36,297 bases of DNA from Bacteroidales bacterium (lineage in GTDB: Bacteria; Bacteroidota; Bacteroidia; Bacteroidales; VadinHA17), in assembly GCA_016928075.1 (NCBI GenBank), contig JAFGLJ010000013.1, positions 1-36,297 of the forward strand, given 5' to 3'. The position numbers and the translations under genes were made by a program. The notes under the pieces were generated by a model, which saw only the letters and a list, made by a program, of their open reading frames with translations, was not told where the DNA came from and ran no database searches. Shown one piece after another: positions 3,234-10,595 of the stretch (positions are counted from its first letter, which is position 1; each line of letters starts with the position of its first letter).

Positions 3234-3333
3234 CCTCGGTTCCATTAATCCATTGTTCCAATATTCCATAAAAAGAGGCATTAACCAAAAATTAACACAA
3301 AAAATTTGGAGAATTAGTTTAAAGATTCTTATA

Positions 3334-3366
3334 TTTGACTGACCGTTCATTCAAAACGGTATTTTG
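3334..3366 (+). promoter_or_regulatory. Candidate promoter of the TetR-headed operon
   Basis: TTTG at 3334-3337 and TATTTTG at 3360-3366 resemble the Bacteroidetes -33 and -7 elements. They are separated by 22 nt, and the -7 box is one base short of the consensus. The pair sits within and between the two operator-like repeats, so repressor binding would block it. Confidence 0.35.
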
Positions 3367-3400
3367 TTTGACAAATTAATGACTGAACGTTTAATCAAAA
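3336..3400. promoter_or_regulatory. Duplicated operator-like site (probable TetR autoregulation)
   Basis: TGACTGACCGTTCATTCAAAA (3336-3356) and TGACTGAACGTTTAATCAAAA (3380-3400) agree at 18 of 21 positions and start 44 bp apart, about four helical turns. Each contains a partly palindromic core (TGACCGTTCA and TGAACGTTTA), the kind of site TetR dimers bind. The second copy ends 4 nt before the TetR start codon. Autoregulation is inferred from this position. Confidence 0.6.
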
Positions 3401-3404
3401 AACT

Positions 3405-3977
3405 ATGCCAAGAACAGAACAGCAGTTTGAAGGAATAAGGGAAGAGAAGAAAGCCCTTATAATGCGGACAGCTCTTGAATTGTTTGCCACAAATGGCTTT
3501 CATGGCACAACGATAAGCAATATTGCCAAGAAAGCAGAGATATCAAAAGGGTTGTTGTATAATTATTTCGAGAGCAAGGAAGATCTTATGAAGGCTATCA
3601 TATATACAGGGCTTGAGAACATTGATAAGCTGATGGATCCCAATAAAGATGGGATACTGACGGGGGACGAGATGGAATTTCTCCTTGACAGGTACTTTAA
3701 ATTACTGAATGAGGATACCTGTTTCTGGAGGCTTTATTTCACACTTCTCCTGCAGGAGCCGATCTTAAAACTGGTAGAAGAAAGACTTTCAAAAGTAATA
3801 GGCAGCTATATCGATCTATTAAAATCATATTTTGAATCACGGGGAAGCGAGGATCCTTACACCGAAGCTGTTGTCTTCGGTGCTTTGCTTGATGGCATAG
3901 GTATGAACTACGTAGCCTATCCCGAGATATTCAAGGTAGAGAAAATAAAAGAGAGAATATTGAAAAAATACAGATAA
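3405..3977 (+). CDS. TetR/AcrR-family regulator with an EF-hand-like loop
   Basis: The protein has 190 aa, the usual length for the family. The N-terminal helix-turn-helix is clear: a helix with ALELFATNGFHGTTISNIAKKA, then ISKGLLYNYFESKEDL (residues ~23-61). The C-terminal ligand domain is aromatic-rich (CFWRLYFTLLLQEP) and unassignable by eye. Residues 78-89 (DPNKDGILTGDE) match the canonical EF-hand calcium loop at positions 1, 3, 5, 6, 8, 9 and 12, which is unexpected in this family. The gene heads an operon: the LolA-like gene begins 11 nt downstream, then the permeases, ATPase and barrel. Two operator-like repeats lie directly upstream, so it probably represses itself and the transport genes until an unknown ligand binds. 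Confidence 0.9.
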   Translation: MPRTEQQFEGIREEKKALIMRTALELFATNGFHGTTISNIAKKAEISKGLLYNYFESKEDLMKAIIYTGLENIDKLMDPNKDGILTGDEMEFLLDRYFKLLNEDTCFWRLYFTLLLQEPILKLVEERLSKVIGSYIDLLKSYFESRGSEDPYTEAVVFGALLDGIGMNYVAYPEIFKVEKIKERILKKYR

Positions 3978-3988
3978 CTAGACACAAT

Positions 3989-4738
3989 ATGAAAAAGAAA
4001 CTTTTTACAACCGTATTAATTGTTTTTTCATGTTTATTCATGTCAGCACAGGATGCCAGAGAAATCATTAAAAGGGCAAATGACAAGATAAACGGTGAGG
4101 AATCGAGTTTCAGCATTATGAAAATGACCATTATCCGTCCCGAGTGGGAGCGGACACTTGAATTTAAAAACTGGACCAAGGGAACAGATTATGCCCTGAC
4201 CCTTATCACTGCCCCGGCCAGGGATAAAGGTCAGAGTTTCCTGAAAAGGGGTTCGGAAATGTGGAGCTGGAACCCGACTATAAACAGGCTGATTAAGCTT
4301 CCACCATCAATGATGTCGCAAGGCTGGATGGGATCTGATTACACAAATGATGATATACTGAAGGAATCTTCAGTTGTTGAGGATTACATACATGAAATAA
4401 CAGGTGAGGACGAAATAGAGGGCCGTAAATGTTACAGGATAAAAATGACAGCAAAAGAGGAGGCAGCAGTTATATGGGGTCACCAGGTAAGGTGGATTGA
4501 TAAAGATGATTATTTATTCCTGAAAGCAGAGCTATATGATGAAGATGGATATCTTGTTCGTACTGAACTGGGTAAAAACATAAAAACAATGGATGGAAGA
4601 TTAATTCCATCAATACTGGAAGTCATACCGGAAGACGAGGAGGGCTATAAGACTGTAGTGGAAATAGAAGAAATAGAATTTAATATACCTGTTGAGGATG
4701 GTTTTTTCTCACAGCAGAACCTGAAGAGGGTTAGGTAA
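3989..4738 (+). CDS. LolA-like periplasmic outer-membrane lipoprotein-sorting protein
   Basis: The protein has 249 aa. A signal peptide (MKKKLFTTVLIVFSCLFMSA, then Gln) sends it to the periplasm. The mature part begins DAREIIKRANDKINGEESSF and contains MTIIRPEWERTLEFKNW, LITAPARDKGQSFLKRG, MWSWNPTINRLIKLPPSMM and SQGWMGSDYTNDD. These are the marks of the LolA-like family often annotated as outer membrane lipoprotein-sorting protein, whose half-open beta-barrel can hold acyl chains. It lies between a TetR gene and two FtsX-type permeases, like a periplasmic shuttle working with its own ABC machine. It is not the housekeeping LolA by sequence pattern. The cargo could be a lipid, lipoprotein or other hydrophobic compound. 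Family call good, cargo unknown. Confidence 0.88.
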   Translation: MKKKLFTTVLIVFSCLFMSAQDAREIIKRANDKINGEESSFSIMKMTIIRPEWERTLEFKNWTKGTDYALTLITAPARDKGQSFLKRGSEMWSWNPTINRLIKLPPSMMSQGWMGSDYTNDDILKESSVVEDYIHEITGEDEIEGRKCYRIKMTAKEEAAVIWGHQVRWIDKDDYLFLKAELYDEDGYLVRTELGKNIKTMDGRLIPSILEVIPEDEEGYKTVVEIEEIEFNIPVEDGFFSQQNLKRVR

Positions 4739-4759
4739 ACTACAAAAAGAATTATTGAT

Positions 4760-6172
4760 ATGAAAAATTATAAAATGGCCTGGAGGAATCTCTGGAGAAA
4801 TAAGCGAAGGACTGTAATTACAGCTTCTTCAGTGTTCTTCGCAGTATTTTTTGCCCTAGTAATGAGGTCGCTTCAGTTGGGGACCTATGACTCGATGTAT
4901 AAGAATATAATTGAATCATATTCAGGCTATATCCAGGTGCAGGATGAAGATTTCTGGGAAAACAAAATAGTCGATAATGTATTCAAAAATAGCGAAGAAC
5001 TCCGGGAAAAAATTACCGCAGACCGGAATGTTGAGGATGTAATTCCGCGTTTCGAATCCTTTGCCCTTGCATCAAGTGGCTCCCGCTCGAAGGGAGTGAT
5101 GGTGATGGGAATAGACCCGGAAAAGGAAAAACTATTATCAGACGTGGAAGATAAACTGGTCAAATATCGCCTTACAGATGAAGCTATCAGTGCAATTAAA
5201 TCCGAGGAAATCCCAGCTTATCTCGAAAAGAACATGGACCTTTTTCATGGGAACTCTTATTCTTCCGATGGCAGGCTACAGATAGAACTTGGTATTAAGG
5301 AAAACGATGAAGAATACCTCATGCCACTGTTCGAAAAATATGCCTCTGTTAAAAACGGCTATTTCAGCATGGGTGATAATGCAGCCCTGGTTGGCGACAG
5401 GCTTGCAAGATACCTCGGCCTTGAGAGGGGCGATACAATTATCCTGGTTGGACAGGCTTACCATGGCCATACTGCTGCCGGTAAATATGTTATTAAGGGT
5501 ATTGTGAAAATACCTAATCCTGATATTGAAAATAAAATAGTCTATCTCCCTGTCGACGTATGCCAGACTCTCTATTATGCAGATGGTATGCTTACGTCAA
5601 TGGTGGTGCATCTAATGGACGACGATGATGATGCAATAAACAATACATTGAAACGTCTTGATTCAAACATTGAAAGCCCATACCGTATCCTGGGCTGGAA
5701 GGAAATGAACGAGACACTTGTCCAGCAGCTCGATGCAGATAATAAAAGCGGAATTATAATGATTGGTATACTGTACCTGGTAATTGCCTTTGGTGTGTTT
5801 GGCACGGTTCTGATGATGACAGCAGAGCGGAGAAGGGAATTTGGGGTTCTGATAGCCATAGGCATGCAGAAAACGAAGATGGCCGGGGTTATGGTATATG
5901 AGATGCTTTACATAGGCCTTCTCGGTATCCTTGCCGGTGTGGCAATAGCCTTGCCATCGATAATCTATGGATATCATCACCCGATACATTTCCCGAGCAA
6001 ATTTGCCAAGATCTGGGAAGAATACGGATTTGAACCTGTCATGGCTTTTCAGTGGATTGATAAATATTTCCTTTCTCAATCGCTAGTGGTAGCAATAATC
6101 GTACTCGTAGCAGTGATATATCCTGTTGTGAAAATACGTAACCTGAAAGAAGTAAACGCAATTAAAGCATAA
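4760..6172 (+). CDS. ABC transporter permease, FtsX/MacB/LolC type (first of two)
   Basis: The protein has 470 aa. It starts with a basic amphipathic stretch (YKMAWRNLWRNKRR), a first membrane helix (about residues 18-38), and a large periplasmic domain of ~290 residues of MacB-PCD type. Three C-terminal helices follow (about 330-350, 374-400, 437-460). The FtsX signature is seen in FGTVLMMTAERRREFGVLIAIGM, and the coupling region is basic. Such four-helix permeases work by mechanotransmission, moving substrates in the periplasm rather than across the inner membrane. The gene is 21 nt after the LolA-like gene and 12 nt before a second permease, and the two likely form a LolC/LolE-like heterodimer. 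Confidence 0.9.
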   Translation: MKNYKMAWRNLWRNKRRTVITASSVFFAVFFALVMRSLQLGTYDSMYKNIIESYSGYIQVQDEDFWENKIVDNVFKNSEELREKITADRNVEDVIPRFESFALASSGSRSKGVMVMGIDPEKEKLLSDVEDKLVKYRLTDEAISAIKSEEIPAYLEKNMDLFHGNSYSSDGRLQIELGIKENDEEYLMPLFEKYASVKNGYFSMGDNAALVGDRLARYLGLERGDTIILVGQAYHGHTAAGKYVIKGIVKIPNPDIENKIVYLPVDVCQTLYYADGMLTSMVVHLMDDDDDAINNTLKRLDSNIESPYRILGWKEMNETLVQQLDADNKSGIIMIGILYLVIAFGVFGTVLMMTAERRREFGVLIAIGMQKTKMAGVMVYEMLYIGLLGILAGVAIALPSIIYGYHHPIHFPSKFAKIWEEYGFEPVMAFQWIDKYFLSQSLVVAIIVLVAVIYPVVKIRNLKEVNAIKA

Positions 6173-6184
6173 AACAATAATAAA

Positions 6185-7612
6185 ATGATAACAAAAACTG
6201 CATGGAAAAACGTATGGCGGAATAAAATCAGAAGCCTTGTGGTTATCGCTTCAGTTACAGTCGGGATCTTTGCCGGTGTATTTGCAGTTGGGGTAATGAA
6301 TGGGGCAGTGGATCAGCGTGTCGATGAAGTGCTCGACAACGAGGTTTCACACATACAGATTACTCACCCTGACTTCAGGTCGAATAATGACCTTGCATGC
6401 AATTTGGAAAATGTAAGTACACTGAAGGAACGTATTTCCGGGCTGGAAAAGGTTGAAGCTGTCTGCGACAGATTGTTTGTTGTTGGTATGGCAAACACAG
6501 CCAGGAAAAGTGTCGGGGTGAATATTATTGGGATAAATCCCGAAGAGGAAAAAGAAATATTTGGTTTATATAAAGAGCTTGAACCGGGTACCGGTGATTA
6601 TTTTGCTGATCCGGATAGGGAGGAGCTTTCATATATAGGGTTCGACCTGGCAAAAACCCTGAATATAATACGATACCAGGTCAACGATGAAATTATTGAA
6701 GAACTTCGATCAGAGGAATTGCCGGAGGATATTCTGGCAGGGATAAGTGAATTCACAGGAGAGAGGTTTGATAATGAAAGGAGTTTCAAAAAGGCCATGA
6801 GATCGGTGTTGACGGCCAAACAGGAGTCAGAATACGGAAGGCTGATTCTTGAGAAAGCACAGACGTTCAGGGAGAGAGCCAAGTTCACCCTGACTTTTGT
6901 TAACAGCAATAATCACCAGACAGGCGGGGTTTTCAGGGTTGGTGGTATCTATAATATCCCCAACAGCATGTTTGAGTCAAACCAGGTATTCATACAGGAC
7001 CGGATTCTTAGGCGGCTCATTGAATTTCCGGAAAATACAGCTCATCAAATCGTAATAAGGCTTACCGACGTTGATGACACCAGAACCATGACTAAAAAGC
7101 TGAGATCGGATTTTCCTGAGCTTGAGGTATTGAACTGGAAGCAGATACAACCCGATATGGCAATGATGTCTGATTTTGCAGGGGTAATGTATGGTTTTTT
7201 CATGGTAATAATACTCGCAGCACTGGCTTTCGGGATAGTTAACACAATGCTTATGGTGGTGCTTGAACGGACCAAGGAACTGGGAATGCTAACCGCCATA
7301 GGGATGAACAAGAAGAAGGTGTTCAGGATGATAATGACCGAGTCAGTTTTCCTTTCACTTACCGGAGGTGTTGCAGGTATGGTGGTGAGCTGGATTATTA
7401 TAAAAGTTACTTCCGCCAGAGGCATAAATTTCGGATCCATGCAGGAAGGTTTAGAAGCAATGGGTTTTTCATCATATATCTACCCCGATATAGGGATAGA
7501 CTTCTTCATGATAGTCACAATACTAATAATAATTACAGGCATTTTGTCTTCGGTTTACCCGGCACTTAAAGCCCTGAAACTTGATCCGGCTGAAGCATTG
7601 AGAACAGAATAG
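6185..7612 (+). CDS. ABC transporter permease, FtsX/MacB/LolE type (second of two)
   Basis: The protein has 475 aa and the same plan as the upstream permease: a basic start (TAWKNVWRNKIRSL), one membrane helix, a large periplasmic domain, then three helices. The FtsX motif is NTMLMVVLERTKELGMLTAIGM, and the end is VYPALKALKLDPAEALRTE, the usual C-terminus of MacB/LolE-like permeases. Its periplasmic domain contains an extra charged helical stretch (roughly residues 150-225), and the first permease carries a different insertion at a similar place. The two are therefore diverged partners rather than a recent duplicate. It lies 32 nt before the ATPase gene. Substrate unknown. Confidence 0.9.
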   Translation: MITKTAWKNVWRNKIRSLVVIASVTVGIFAGVFAVGVMNGAVDQRVDEVLDNEVSHIQITHPDFRSNNDLACNLENVSTLKERISGLEKVEAVCDRLFVVGMANTARKSVGVNIIGINPEEEKEIFGLYKELEPGTGDYFADPDREELSYIGFDLAKTLNIIRYQVNDEIIEELRSEELPEDILAGISEFTGERFDNERSFKKAMRSVLTAKQESEYGRLILEKAQTFRERAKFTLTFVNSNNHQTGGVFRVGGIYNIPNSMFESNQVFIQDRILRRLIEFPENTAHQIVIRLTDVDDTRTMTKKLRSDFPELEVLNWKQIQPDMAMMSDFAGVMYGFFMVIILAALAFGIVNTMLMVVLERTKELGMLTAIGMNKKKVFRMIMTESVFLSLTGGVAGMVVSWIIIKVTSARGINFGSMQEGLEAMGFSSYIYPDIGIDFFMIVTILIIITGILSSVYPALKALKLDPAEALRTE

Positions 7613-7644
7613 AAAAAAACAAAAAATATTAAATATCAGAAAAA

Positions 7645-8331
7645 ATGAAAGTACTAGAATTGTTTAACGTGCATAAGGTTTACAATACCACTCATGTAGA
7701 AGTGCATGCTGTAAATGATGTGTGCCTTGAATTTGAAGAGGGAGAATTTGCTGCCATTGTAGGTCCCTCGGGTTCAGGCAAAACAACATTGCTTAATATG
7801 ATAGGTGGGCTTGATATGCCCACTGAAGGCAGGATACTGGTTAACAGCACTGACCTTTCGACACTTAAGTCTTCAGCGATCATCGACTTCAGGATGAGAA
7901 ATATTGGTTTTGTTTTTCAATCATATAACCTGATTCCCGTTCTGACGGCAAAAGAAAATATAGAATTCATAATGAATCTTCAAAAATGGCCCAGGAAGAA
8001 AAGGGATAAACGAACTATGGAACTGCTGAAAGCAGTCGGTCTTGAAGACCGCGTTGACAGCCGCCCGGCACAATTATCAGGCGGACAGCAGCAGAGAGTT
8101 GCCGTAGCCCGGGCACTTGCTTCAAAACCCAGGTTTGTACTTGCAGATGAACCTACTGCAAACCTTGATACAAAATCAACTGAAAACCTGCTGGATATTA
8201 TGGAAAAGTTAAACAGGGAAGAGAATATTACTTTCATATTCTCAACCCACGACGCCAGGGTAGTGAAAAAAGCCAGGAGAGTGATCACACTTGAAGACGG
8301 GAAAGTAGTATCTGATGAAATAAGAGAATAA
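7645..8331 (+). CDS. ABC transporter ATP-binding protein, LolD/MacB type
   Basis: The protein has 228 aa, typical for this class. Walker A is GPSGSGKTT (40-48), the Q-loop is FQSYNLIPVLTAKEN (Q92), the signature is LSGGQQQRVAVARAL (144-158), Walker B is FVLADEP (164-170) with the D-loop TANLD, and the H-loop is STHD (H202). All catalytic residues are present. It is placed between two FtsX-type permeases and an outer-membrane barrel, so it presumably powers that machine from the cytoplasmic side. The barrel gene starts one base after its stop, showing tight co-translation. By sequence it could serve LolCDE, MacB or FtsE-like systems; context favours a dedicated exporter. Confidence 0.95.
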   Translation: MKVLELFNVHKVYNTTHVEVHAVNDVCLEFEEGEFAAIVGPSGSGKTTLLNMIGGLDMPTEGRILVNSTDLSTLKSSAIIDFRMRNIGFVFQSYNLIPVLTAKENIEFIMNLQKWPRKKRDKRTMELLKAVGLEDRVDSRPAQLSGGQQQRVAVARALASKPRFVLADEPTANLDTKSTENLLDIMEKLNREENITFIFSTHDARVVKKARRVITLEDGKVVSDEIRE

Positions 8332-8332
8332 T

Positions 8333-9484
8333 ATGAAACGGCTTTTTGTCCTGAATATATTATTCGTTCTAAGCCTTGTAATCGCGGGAGGCCAGGATAA
8401 ATCTTCCCCGGTAAGTTTAAAGGGTTACCTCAGCAATATACAGAGTATGATTTTTGAAGACCTTGAAGACGACTGGATAAATGACAATCTGCTTCATAAC
8501 AGGCTGAATATCAGACTATATGCTGGTACTAAAGTAACATTTGCCCTGGAATTACGAAACCGTTTTTTTACAGGAGATATGATAAAACTGGATCCGACAT
8601 ATGCTGGAAAACTGGCTGCAGACAATGGTTTAGTGGATCTCACAACGAATATTTTCAGTGAAAATTCTTTTATCCTGAATACGAAAATAGATCGTCTATG
8701 GGCTGATATAACCATGGGCCCTGTTCAGCTTAAGGCAGGACGCCAGAGAATTAACTGGGGTCAGACCTTCGTGTGGAATCCTAATGATATTTTTAATGCA
8801 TATTCCTACTTCGATATTGATTATCCAGAGAGGCCGGGGAGTGATGCCCTGAGGCTGCAGGTATACCCCAGCTATTCTTCTACAATTGAGCTGGCGGCAG
8901 CCATAAACAACGAGGAAGATCTGACCCTCGCAGGAATGTACAGGTTTAATAAGTGGGGATATGATATTCAATTACTCGCGGGAATGGTCGACAGTGAGGA
9001 TATTGTTTTCGGGGCAGGCTGGTCGGGGGCTATAGGAAGTACATCGTTCAGGGGAGAGATCAGCTGGTTCCAGCCGCAGGATAATTTTTCAGATACCACG
9101 GGGACAGGTCTTTTTACAATAGGATTCGACTATGGATTCTCGGGAACCGGCATGCTCCAGTTACAGGCCATGTACTGCAACAACCCTCTTAGTTTTAACA
9201 ATTTTGATGAATTCTATTCCGAAAACCTCTCCGCCAAGGACCTTGCATTTTCAGAATTTTCATTATTCGGTAGTGTCACATACCCGGTAACCCCCCTTTT
9301 TAACCTCAGCCTGGCAGCTATATGGTACCCGGATCTCGACGGATTCTATACAGGACCATCAGCAGAAATATCAATGGCCGATAACCTTGATTTCTCATTC
9401 ATCTGGCAGTATTTCAATGCTGAATTGAATGATGAAAGAACAAAGATGACACTGGTATTTCTGAGGATGAAATACAGTTTCTGA
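8333..9484 (+). CDS. Outer-membrane beta-barrel protein of the TetR/ABC operon
   Basis: The protein has 383 aa with a signal peptide (MKRLFVLNILFVLSLVIAGG). The rest alternates polar and hydrophobic residues in barrel fashion and ends with an aromatic residue (...FLRMKYSF), the usual outer-membrane sorting signal. The segment GRQRINWGQTFVWNPNDIFN followed by PGSDALRLQVYPS recalls the porin-like families (DUF1302 type) that accompany RND-type lipid exporters. I cannot place it more exactly by eye. It is the last gene of the tight operon, so it may be the outer-membrane exit or acceptor for whatever the ABC and LolA-like parts carry. Confidence 0.75.
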   Translation: MKRLFVLNILFVLSLVIAGGQDKSSPVSLKGYLSNIQSMIFEDLEDDWINDNLLHNRLNIRLYAGTKVTFALELRNRFFTGDMIKLDPTYAGKLAADNGLVDLTTNIFSENSFILNTKIDRLWADITMGPVQLKAGRQRINWGQTFVWNPNDIFNAYSYFDIDYPERPGSDALRLQVYPSYSSTIELAAAINNEEDLTLAGMYRFNKWGYDIQLLAGMVDSEDIVFGAGWSGAIGSTSFRGEISWFQPQDNFSDTTGTGLFTIGFDYGFSGTGMLQLQAMYCNNPLSFNNFDEFYSENLSAKDLAFSEFSLFGSVTYPVTPLFNLSLAAIWYPDLDGFYTGPSAEISMADNLDFSFIWQYFNAELNDERTKMTLVFLRMKYSF

Positions 9485-9525: not shown

Positions 9526-10260
9526 ATGGCCCTGGTACATGAATTTGAGAGGAGCGGTAACTGGCTTTTTAAAAGGAGAGGCTGGCTTCCTCTGTTTATA
9601 TTTATCCCTTCACTGGTTTATATATACCTGTCAGGTGCGAAAAATCTCGGGTTCAGGCCAGTCCTTGAAATAGCTTTTCTCGCGGTAAGTTTATTTGGCC
9701 AGTTTATCAGAGCTGTAACTGTTGGCCGCACACCTAAAAACACTTCGGGAAGAAATGTGAAGAAGCAGGTTGCGGATAGCCTTAACACCACAGGCATATA
9801 TTCGGTGGTAAGACACCCCCTTTACCTGGGTAACTTTTTCATGTGGCTCGGACCGGTAATATTCCTTAGATCAGTATGGATCGCTGTTATTTTTTGTCTT
9901 GCTTACTGGCTTTATTATGAAAGGATAATGTTTGCCGAAGAGCAATTTCTTAGGAGAAAGTTCAGTGAATCTTATGACTTCTGGTCAGAAAAGGTAAGGT
10001 CATTTATTCCTTCATTCAGTAATTATACCAGGTCTGACCTGCCTTTTTCTTTCAGGAATGTCCTGAAAAGAGAGTACAATGGATTTGGATTGATATTCAT
10101 GGTATTTGCCTTACTCGATATCATCCGCAACTACACACTTGAAGGAGGCCTGAGTATTCACCCGATGTGGGCTTTGCTTCTTGCATTCGGGTTTCTCACA
10201 TGGATTATACTCAGGACAATGAAGAAACGCACCACCTGGCTTGACGTCCGGGGAAGATGA
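9526..10260 (+). CDS. ICMT/PEMT-family membrane methyltransferase (possibly lipid A 1-phosphate)
   Basis: The protein has 244 aa and about five membrane helices. The family core is VVRHPLYLGNFFMWLG (residues ~92-107) and YYERIMFAEEQFLRRKFSESYDFW (~131-154), the SAM-binding half of isoprenylcysteine carboxyl methyltransferase-like enzymes. Bacteria lack prenylated CaaX proteins, so another substrate is needed. The Leptospira relative LmtA methylates a lipid A phosphate, and I recall Bacteroidales members of this length being named lipid A 1-phosphate methyltransferases. That assignment is an inference here. The stop overlaps the yidD start by ATGA, so the two are co-translated. A role in envelope lipid modification fits the operon upstream. 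Confidence 0.72.
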   Translation: MALVHEFERSGNWLFKRRGWLPLFIFIPSLVYIYLSGAKNLGFRPVLEIAFLAVSLFGQFIRAVTVGRTPKNTSGRNVKKQVADSLNTTGIYSVVRHPLYLGNFFMWLGPVIFLRSVWIAVIFCLAYWLYYERIMFAEEQFLRRKFSESYDFWSEKVRSFIPSFSNYTRSDLPFSFRNVLKREYNGFGLIFMVFALLDIIRNYTLEGGLSIHPMWALLLAFGFLTWIILRTMKKRTTWLDVRGR

Positions 10261-10595
10261 TGCCAATATTCCATATCTTTGCAAATAACATGGCAGTTCT
10301 GAGAAAAGTACTTATATACATTTTACTCGTACCCCTGTACTTTTATCGGTGGTTCATTTCCCCGCTTACAGGGCCATCCTGCAGGCATACCCCCACATGT
10401 TCGAAGTATGCCATTGATGCTTTAAAAATGCATGGTCCATTTAGGGGTTTTTTGCTGGCGGCAAATCGTTTCAGCAGGTGCAGGCCCGGTGGCACACATG
10501 GTTATGACCCGGTTCCAAGGATACTGGTCAAAAAGTACAGACCATGGATGAAATATACCGGTAAATGGCAAAGATCAAACAGGTTAAAACGGTAA
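10257..10595 (+). CDS. yidD: Membrane protein insertion efficiency factor YidD
   Basis: The protein has up to 112 aa. The family signature is complete: YRWFISPLTGPSCRHTPTCSKYAIDAL, then HGPFRGFLLAANRFSRCRPGGTHGYDPVP, with the conserved cysteines. YidD is a small amphipathic protein at the inner membrane that helps YidC insert proteins. The start is uncertain: ATG at 10257 overlaps the upstream stop, but Met12 at 10290 (MAVLRKVLIYILLVPLYFY) matches the usual YidD N-terminus better. The gene is here not beside rnpA or yidC as in many bacteria. Its end faces the LytTR gene with only 2 nt between stops. Confidence 0.95.
   Translation: MMPIFHIFANNMAVLRKVLIYILLVPLYFYRWFISPLTGPSCRHTPTCSKYAIDALKMHGPFRGFLLAANRFSRCRPGGTHGYDPVPRILVKKYRPWMKYTGKWQRSNRLKR

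Follow-up and report, generated by a model that had tools for sequence, protein, structure and literature searches.

How lipids other than lipopolysaccharide and lipoproteins are delivered to the outer membrane is a long-standing question, and the envelope biology of the Bacteroidota is poorly charted. Could a single six-gene cluster in a Bacteroidales bacterium encode such a delivery line? The cluster lies in contig JAFGLJ010000013.1 (assembly GCA_016928075.1), whose stretch of 36,297 nucleotides (nt) is hereafter called the window and which is contig 25 of a 76-contig genome that is 75.7% complete. We conclude, with moderate confidence, that the six genes are a conserved cluster, likely a TetR-repressed operon, and that they likely serve to move a lipid-like molecule outward, from inner membrane to outer membrane. 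A first-pass annotation, made from the letters alone, had described six co-directional genes separated by gaps of 11, 21, 12, 32 and 1 nt, and our calls recovered the same open reading frames (ORFs), strand and gaps (lengths in amino acids, aa; ABC, ATP-binding cassette):

3405..3977, + strand: TetR-family regulator, 190 aa; PF00440 (TetR_N), 63.5 bits; carries an EF-hand-like loop
3989..4738, + strand: LolA-like periplasmic carrier, 249 aa; PF17131 (LolA_like), 181.7 bits
4760..6172, + strand: FtsX-type permease 1 (P1), predicted LolC/E fold, 470 aa; Pfam FtsX, 50 bits
6185..7612, + strand: FtsX-type permease 2 (P2), 475 aa; PF02687, 68.7 bits
7645..8331, + strand: ABC ATPase of LolD/MacB type, 228 aa; ABC_tran, 126.9 bits; best NCBIfam model LolD
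8333..9484, + strand: predicted outer-membrane beta barrel of about 18 strands, OprD/AlgE-type; remote DUF1302, 24.4 bits

Conservation of the cluster across Bacteroidota

Of 149 genomes of the order (Bacteroidales), 84 gave a carrier match at or below E 1e-10. The matches comprised a sharply separated orthologue group of 60 strong matches in 58/149 genomes (E 6.9e-67 or better; a contig-end fragment of 65 residues and 53% identity in G013 was excluded from this count) and a weak group of 73 (E 5.6e-36 or worse), which includes one short fragment probably of the strong kind. Window aside, 55 of the 59 strong loci were fetched (G012, G023, G076 and G114 were excluded), two of which were dropped for want of a carrier ORF above 200 bits (L072, L093), and an order-sample locus was judged if it held the carrier ORF and at least 7.5 kb of downstream sequence. 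Among the 35 loci so judged, P1 was found in 33, P2 in 34, the ATPase in 34, the barrel in 29 and all four in 28 (missing were P1 in L052, the barrel in L066, L070, L071, L073 and L096, and all four in L076).

All four downstream genes were likewise present in 5/5 judged loci, out of 8, from named Bacteroidota genomes (L004 was too short; L008 and L011 were without a carrier ORF). Across a wider phylum sample, in which the P1 profile matched 66 of 247 genomes at E 1e-40, the four genes stood together in 12 of 17 judged loci among 20 fetched (no carrier ORF was obtained for L147 and L161, and L154 did not extend far enough), with misses of the ATPase (L150), P1 (L158), P1 and ATPase (L160), the barrel (L162) and P1 and barrel (L163), some of which may stem from simple ORF picking. 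Co-occurrence, whose rarity the first-pass annotation had named as grounds for abandoning its proposal, is seen in all three samples. The gene order, T-L-P1-P2-A-B from regulator to barrel, is kept across Bacteroidota, ruling out chance neighbours, and median gaps between neighbouring genes in these operons are 10 to 44 nt.

Variants of the layout were also seen: one ATPase is flanked by two P1-P2 pairs in L011, L094, L095 and L164, with a barrel also between the pairs in L094 and L164. Recurrent flanking genes were noticed by inspection in other loci and were not counted as part of the module.

Transport proteins and candidate cargo

P1 is modelled with a LolC/E-type permease fold, and the P2 profile matches LolF (9w37) with E 1.8e-37. 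The Hook hairpin of LolC and LolF docks LolA; at the hairpin that we take to be the Hook, the two permease profiles lack about 5 residues relative to LolF, and the P2 hairpin is short against LolE as well. Both permeases score below the LolCE equivalog cut-off of 362.45 bits (86.3 and 110.8), and the ATPase reaches 229.9 bits against the LolD model, under its cut-off of 307.75, which together rule out filing the cluster as LolCDE. Two other LolC/E-like permeases in the same genome also fall below 362.45 (C28, 225.5 bits; C57, 147.2 bits). The ATPase, credited with all motifs in the first-pass annotation, shows GPSGSGKTT, LSGGQQQ, VLADEPT and a switch His by eye. Both permeases (4760-7612), at about 470 aa, exceed the roughly 405-410 aa of many relatives through added periplasmic stretches, which occur here and in some other lineages.

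The carrier and the barrel each begin with a signal-peptide-like stretch without a lipobox Cys, judged by eye, in keeping with the signal peptide earlier ascribed to the barrel. Against the LolA1 model NF053572 the carrier scores 19.2 bits (cut-off 100). LolA1 itself is present in 141/149 genomes of the order, over the cut-off in 134, and 57 of the 58 genomes with the carrier also have it, G136 only as a 42-bit fragment; the nearest family member (G112) has LolA1 and lacks the carrier match. The low score and the separate LolA1 rule out the carrier as a housekeeping LolA, a role that, had the carrier been the only LolA, would by the first-pass annotation's own account have undone its proposal; the window's incomplete genome is the exception among the 58.

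In its model the barrel has about 18 strands and is a channel of OprD/AlgE type rather than a LolB. Its DUF1302 match barely exceeds the cut-off (23.2 bits) and no single stretch passes alone. The fold matches listed are OprD/AlgE-type and other porins, with no Omp85 barrel among them; Pfam calls only DUF1302. The barrel profile found no match to E 1 among Protein Data Bank sequences, and a PHROGs search with the barrel gave no match.

We propose that the two permeases and the ATPase would pull a lipid-like molecule from the inner membrane, that the LolA-like protein would ferry it over the periplasm, and that the barrel would insert it in the outer membrane or let it cross. The single module from inner to outer membrane envisaged in the first-pass annotation is supported by the conserved gene content and order and by the predicted folds of P1 and the barrel. 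Transport would run outward, by analogy with the known relatives LolCDE, MacB and HrtBA, which extract or export. Inward transport, in which the barrel would admit a hydrophobic nutrient, the carrier would move it inward and the ABC pair would feed it to the inner membrane, draws on the role of OprD-type barrels, the fold modelled here, as uptake channels. Since LolCDE- and MacB-type ABC systems extract or export, and the Ame system is described as an efflux system in extracts of its report (PMC6394551), we regard import as very improbable.

Free lipids, terpenoids, pigments or other acylated small molecules are more probable as exported cargo than bulk lipoproteins, because relatives have LolA1 for lipoproteins and because the barrel occupies the place of LolB; the module most likely extracts its cargo as LolCDE does, with a barrel in place of LolB as the partner to which extraction is coupled. 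Were the cargo instead a special class of lipoproteins, the locus would be an accessory Lol pathway with the barrel as receptor or surface-exposure partner. The permeases are indeed closest in sequence and fold to LolC/E and LolF, PF17131 is named for lipoprotein sorting, and the authors of a Borrelia study list lipoproteins as possible cargo in the part of the paper available (PMC13078400). We nevertheless hold this pathway to be unlikely, as the scores lie below the LolCE and LolD equivalog cut-offs, the presumed Hook hairpin is shorter, LolB was not found by Pfam among the six genes, MMPL/RND pumps too have homologous carriers and barrels as neighbours, and monoterpenes are handled by one RND system of this kind, according to extracts of the report (PMC6394551).

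A predicted operator and an EF-hand-like loop

Two conserved features absent from the first-pass annotation, an operator and an EF-hand loop, bear on how the export line would be controlled. They were placed as follows:

3330-3337, + strand: predicted -7 promoter element TATATTTG, overlapping the first operator; called from an assumed consensus
3335-3353, + strand: first predicted TetR operator TTGACTGACCGTTCATTCA, an inverted repeat matching the consensus
3380-3397, + strand: second predicted operator copy TGACTGAACGTTTAATCA, read in the sequence
3636..3674, + strand: EF-hand loop DPNKDGILTGDEM, TetR residues 78-90, fitting what we take to be the canonical 12-residue pattern

The operator consensus TTGACTGANCGTTCAGTCA, chosen after inspection of the upstream regions, was matched, allowing up to 4 mismatches, by 36 of the 38 regions upstream of TetR genes and by 0 of 760 shuffles; the set covers 38 of 39 TetRs, that of L151 (165 bits) falling under the 170-bit limit. 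The motif TAnnTTTG, which we take to be the Bacteroidota -7 element and which overlaps the operator here, overlaps the first bases of the operator in 28 of the 38 loci, and similar second operator copies were seen by eye in some relatives (e.g. L044 and L045). Upstream of the carrier, the operator was found in just 2 of 37 loci lacking a full TetR beside the carrier (among these, L082 has a cut-off TetR at its contig end, and L010 duplicates L081). The predicted operator thus accompanies the TetR gene, as expected from the TetR control proposed in the first-pass annotation, and, as it also overlaps the -7 element, we consider it likely that the TetR sits over the promoter and so represses its own operon.

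The EF-hand pattern fits 119 of the best 120 TetR homologues out of 970 found, a set gathered by shared words that leans towards the query. Asp 1, Asp 5 and Glu 12 are present in all 119, the sole miss having Gly for Glu 12, and in the same set the loop is conserved at 3.37 bits, against 3.44 for the DNA-binding domain and 2.76 for the rest of the ligand domain. Within operons of the window's architecture (type I, below) from the order and named genomes, the pattern occurs in 21/32 TetRs (a raw count of 22/40, from which the 129-aa ORF L119_11, not a type I locus, is left out); it occurs in 0/26 lower-scoring TetR hits, which include the cut-off TetR of L082, in 0/476 other ORFs of similar size and in 8/8000 shuffles. 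Among 20 aligned members, 13 match Pfam EF-hand_1 at E up to 10, the best at 1e-6. The closest matches of the TetR family profile are 6azh and the fatty acid regulator 3whb, and relative to these the loop is no insertion, sitting just after the DNA-binding part at the junction with the ligand part. The loop thus has the sequence of a canonical EF-hand and looks like a calcium-binding site, through which calcium may help to control the operon and would tune repression by the TetR.

An EF-hand TetR is apparently unreported: there was no report of one among the literature matches listed, a provisional result given thin coverage of subscription journals, and in extracts of a paper on the Dx[DN]xDG motif the 'tetr' matches are a species name. 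To our knowledge, few direct calcium-to-transcription routes are known in bacteria, and a TetR with a conserved EF-hand would be such a route.

Several observations weigh against the export reading or against its calcium control. The barrel went undetected in 6 of the 35 judged order-sample loci, and a TetR lies within 600 nt upstream of the carrier in just 26 of 48. LolA1 was not found in the window's own genome by NF053572 and PF03548 searches, that genome being incomplete. OprD/AlgE-type barrels mostly pass small hydrophilic solutes and sugars, a poor fit for a lipid unless this barrel works otherwise. Pfam EF-hand models give no match in the window's own TetR, and the loop is missing in 11/32 TetRs from named genomes and the order, while all 7 TetRs of the wider phylum sample lack it, so that calcium cannot be needed everywhere.

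With these points in view, we still favour TetR-repressed export of a lipid-like molecule, and we put forward only tentatively a fuller version: a calcium-sensing TetR, in which an inter-domain helix-loop-helix has turned into an EF-hand, would control an ABC-powered lipid export line that is built when calcium or lipid leaks past the envelope, within a modular family that swaps ABC and RND engines on a LolA-like carrier and barrel. A self-contained module with a defined operator makes outer-membrane lipid delivery testable.

Proposed motor exchange and comparison with known systems

Beyond the strong carrier group, 45 of the 73 weak-match regions, mostly the stronger ones, were fetched together with C15 of the window's own genome (no carrier ORF was picked in L136). 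Three architectures emerged:

type I, T-L-P1-P2-A-B: the window's architecture
type II, T-B-A-P-P-L: permeases of about 390 and 424 aa
type III, T-RND-L-B: RND-type protein of about 770 aa with 9-14 hydrophobic stretches

The classified rows comprise 58 of type I (with the window), 21 of type II by rule (of which L083 is a truncated type I and sits in the type I clade), 21 of type III, 2 fusions and 3 unclassed; not all loci are complete: some are cut by a contig end at their start, and others yielded no TetR or no barrel. Size and hydrophobic stretches served to identify type III motors, with Pfam run on one free-standing motor (L139, MMPL 130.9 bits) and one fusion (L097, MMPL 175.9 bits and LolA_like 168.7 bits); L097 and L098 are the two loci in which carrier and RND-type protein form a single fusion. 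Searched with the type I barrel profile, 15/21 type III loci, 8/21 type II loci and 0/2 fusions have a barrel within 4 genes. Profile-profile comparison by hhalign aligned type I with type III barrels over 322 columns (probability 98.8, E 8.6e-17), and type I aligned with type II barrels over 300 columns (probability 97.3, E 2.6e-11; 2 of the 10 members of the type II set, A4, were picked by place and length). DUF1302 is over the cut-off in the type III barrels of L139 and L133 and not in two type II barrels scanned, and it is below the cut-off in barrel-like neighbours in L097 and L126.

On the carrier tree, architecture labels need 7 changes versus 42.5 in shuffles; the tree is midpoint-rooted only, and type III rows L121 and L128 stand beside type II without star support. 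In a permease tree of 52 rows, P1, P2 and one type II permease group together (98/94), with the other type II permease and six sampled FtsX proteins of the window's genome outside; the very long branches mean that this tree cannot date the motor change. Because homologous carriers and barrels stand beside either an MMPL/RND pump or another FtsX pair, ABC and RND motors appear, from sequence, to alternate on one carrier family with homologous barrels. No MMPL/RND pump occurs among the six genes or the next two, and the idea in the first-pass annotation that an ABC motor here replaces an RND pump gains support from these relatives. If the same carrier and barrel serve ATP- and proton-driven motors, the motor would be exchangeable, and comparison of the forms would show the roles of carrier and barrel.

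The window's genome also holds a second, type II carrier system split over two contig ends (L165 and L003): C61:1-3562 carries a barrel and the two permeases, of which one is cut by the contig end, with no ATPase seen between barrel and permeases, and C15:175-912 carries the carrier at its start. Separately, the type III locus at L139:1604-8955 runs from a TetR and two half ABC exporters to an MMPL/RND pump, carrier and barrel, and the genes of L136 resemble it. By gene names alone, L139 resembles the iron-responsive P. gingivalis PG1175-81 set as given in extracts of the literature.

Other genes of the window flank the operon. Downstream lie a gene related to LmtA, the lipid A phosphate methyltransferase of Leptospira (9526-10260; 236.3 bits, under the cut-off of 325) and, after it, a YidD gene (10257-10595); we rejected both as module members, since only two of 68 loci, those of the close relatives L005 and L006, have them labelled beside the barrel. 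Upstream on the minus strand (975-2615), a 546-aa protein has, by eye, repeated charged units followed by a different C-terminal part.

Among known systems, the heme exporter HrtBA shares the type VII ABC fold and, in Lactococcus, TetR control; its host is monoderm and it has no carrier or barrel. MacAB-TolC shares the FtsX-type permease domain, whereas the window has no adaptor and no TolC, a separate ATPase and two unequal permeases, and with no MacA or TolC Pfam match in the 8 proteins scanned it cannot be filed there. An HrtBA- or MacB-like exporter of toxic compounds (drugs, bile-like lipids, fatty acids or porphyrins) under TetR control, with a carrier and barrel added, is unlikely: the cluster lacks a MacA adaptor and TolC, and the iron data from P. 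gingivalis, P. intermedia and B. thetaiotaomicron, as far as extracts of those reports go, concern the RND form, in genes unaligned to the window. To the LolCDE-LolA-LolB pathway the window is alike in its modelled LolC/E permease fold, LolD-like ATPase and LolA-like carrier; it differs in falling below the equivalog cut-offs, in the shorter hairpin at the presumed Hook, in having a barrel instead of LolB, in being accessory (58/149 genomes) with an operator-linked TetR, and in the coexistence of LolA1 in relatives.

RND/MMPL systems share the LolA-superfamily carrier, and type III loci also the homologous barrel and often a TetR, but their motor is MMPL/RND where the window has an ABC motor. 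In extracts of the reports, examples are the Castellaniella Ame efflux system, whose RND machinery comes with a protein of the DUF1302 family and one of the LolA superfamily (PMC6394551), and a TetR-MMPL-LolA-like set of P. gingivalis (PMC10434189, PMC10470040). Literature searches returned just one paper for PF17131, on Burkholderia surface antigens as listed, the Ame paper alone for DUF1302 with LolA (PMC6394551), the Borrelia paper alone for a LolA-like protein joined with ABC transporter, barrel and operon (PMC13078400), and, in further searches, nothing on this six-gene system among the matches listed.

That Borrelia paper proposes a like logic. As described in the part available (PMC13078400), the BBJ23-29 cluster combines a MacB-like type VII ABC transporter, its ATPase, a LolA-like protein and an Omp85 barrel, and its authors propose lipoproteins as possible cargo. 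In both, a type VII ABC system is clustered with a LolA-like protein and an outer-membrane barrel; the Borrelia cluster differs in its homodimeric permease and TPR proteins, apparently in its Omp85 barrel, and in having no TetR among the genes given there. The first-pass annotation was right to single out the locus as a candidate undescribed system, and the regulator is apparently unreported; because the distant Borrelia cluster is in print, 'undescribed' needs limiting. Set against all of these systems, the cluster is apparently the ABC form of a motor-exchanging carrier-barrel family, equipped with an EF-hand TetR that has apparently gone unreported.

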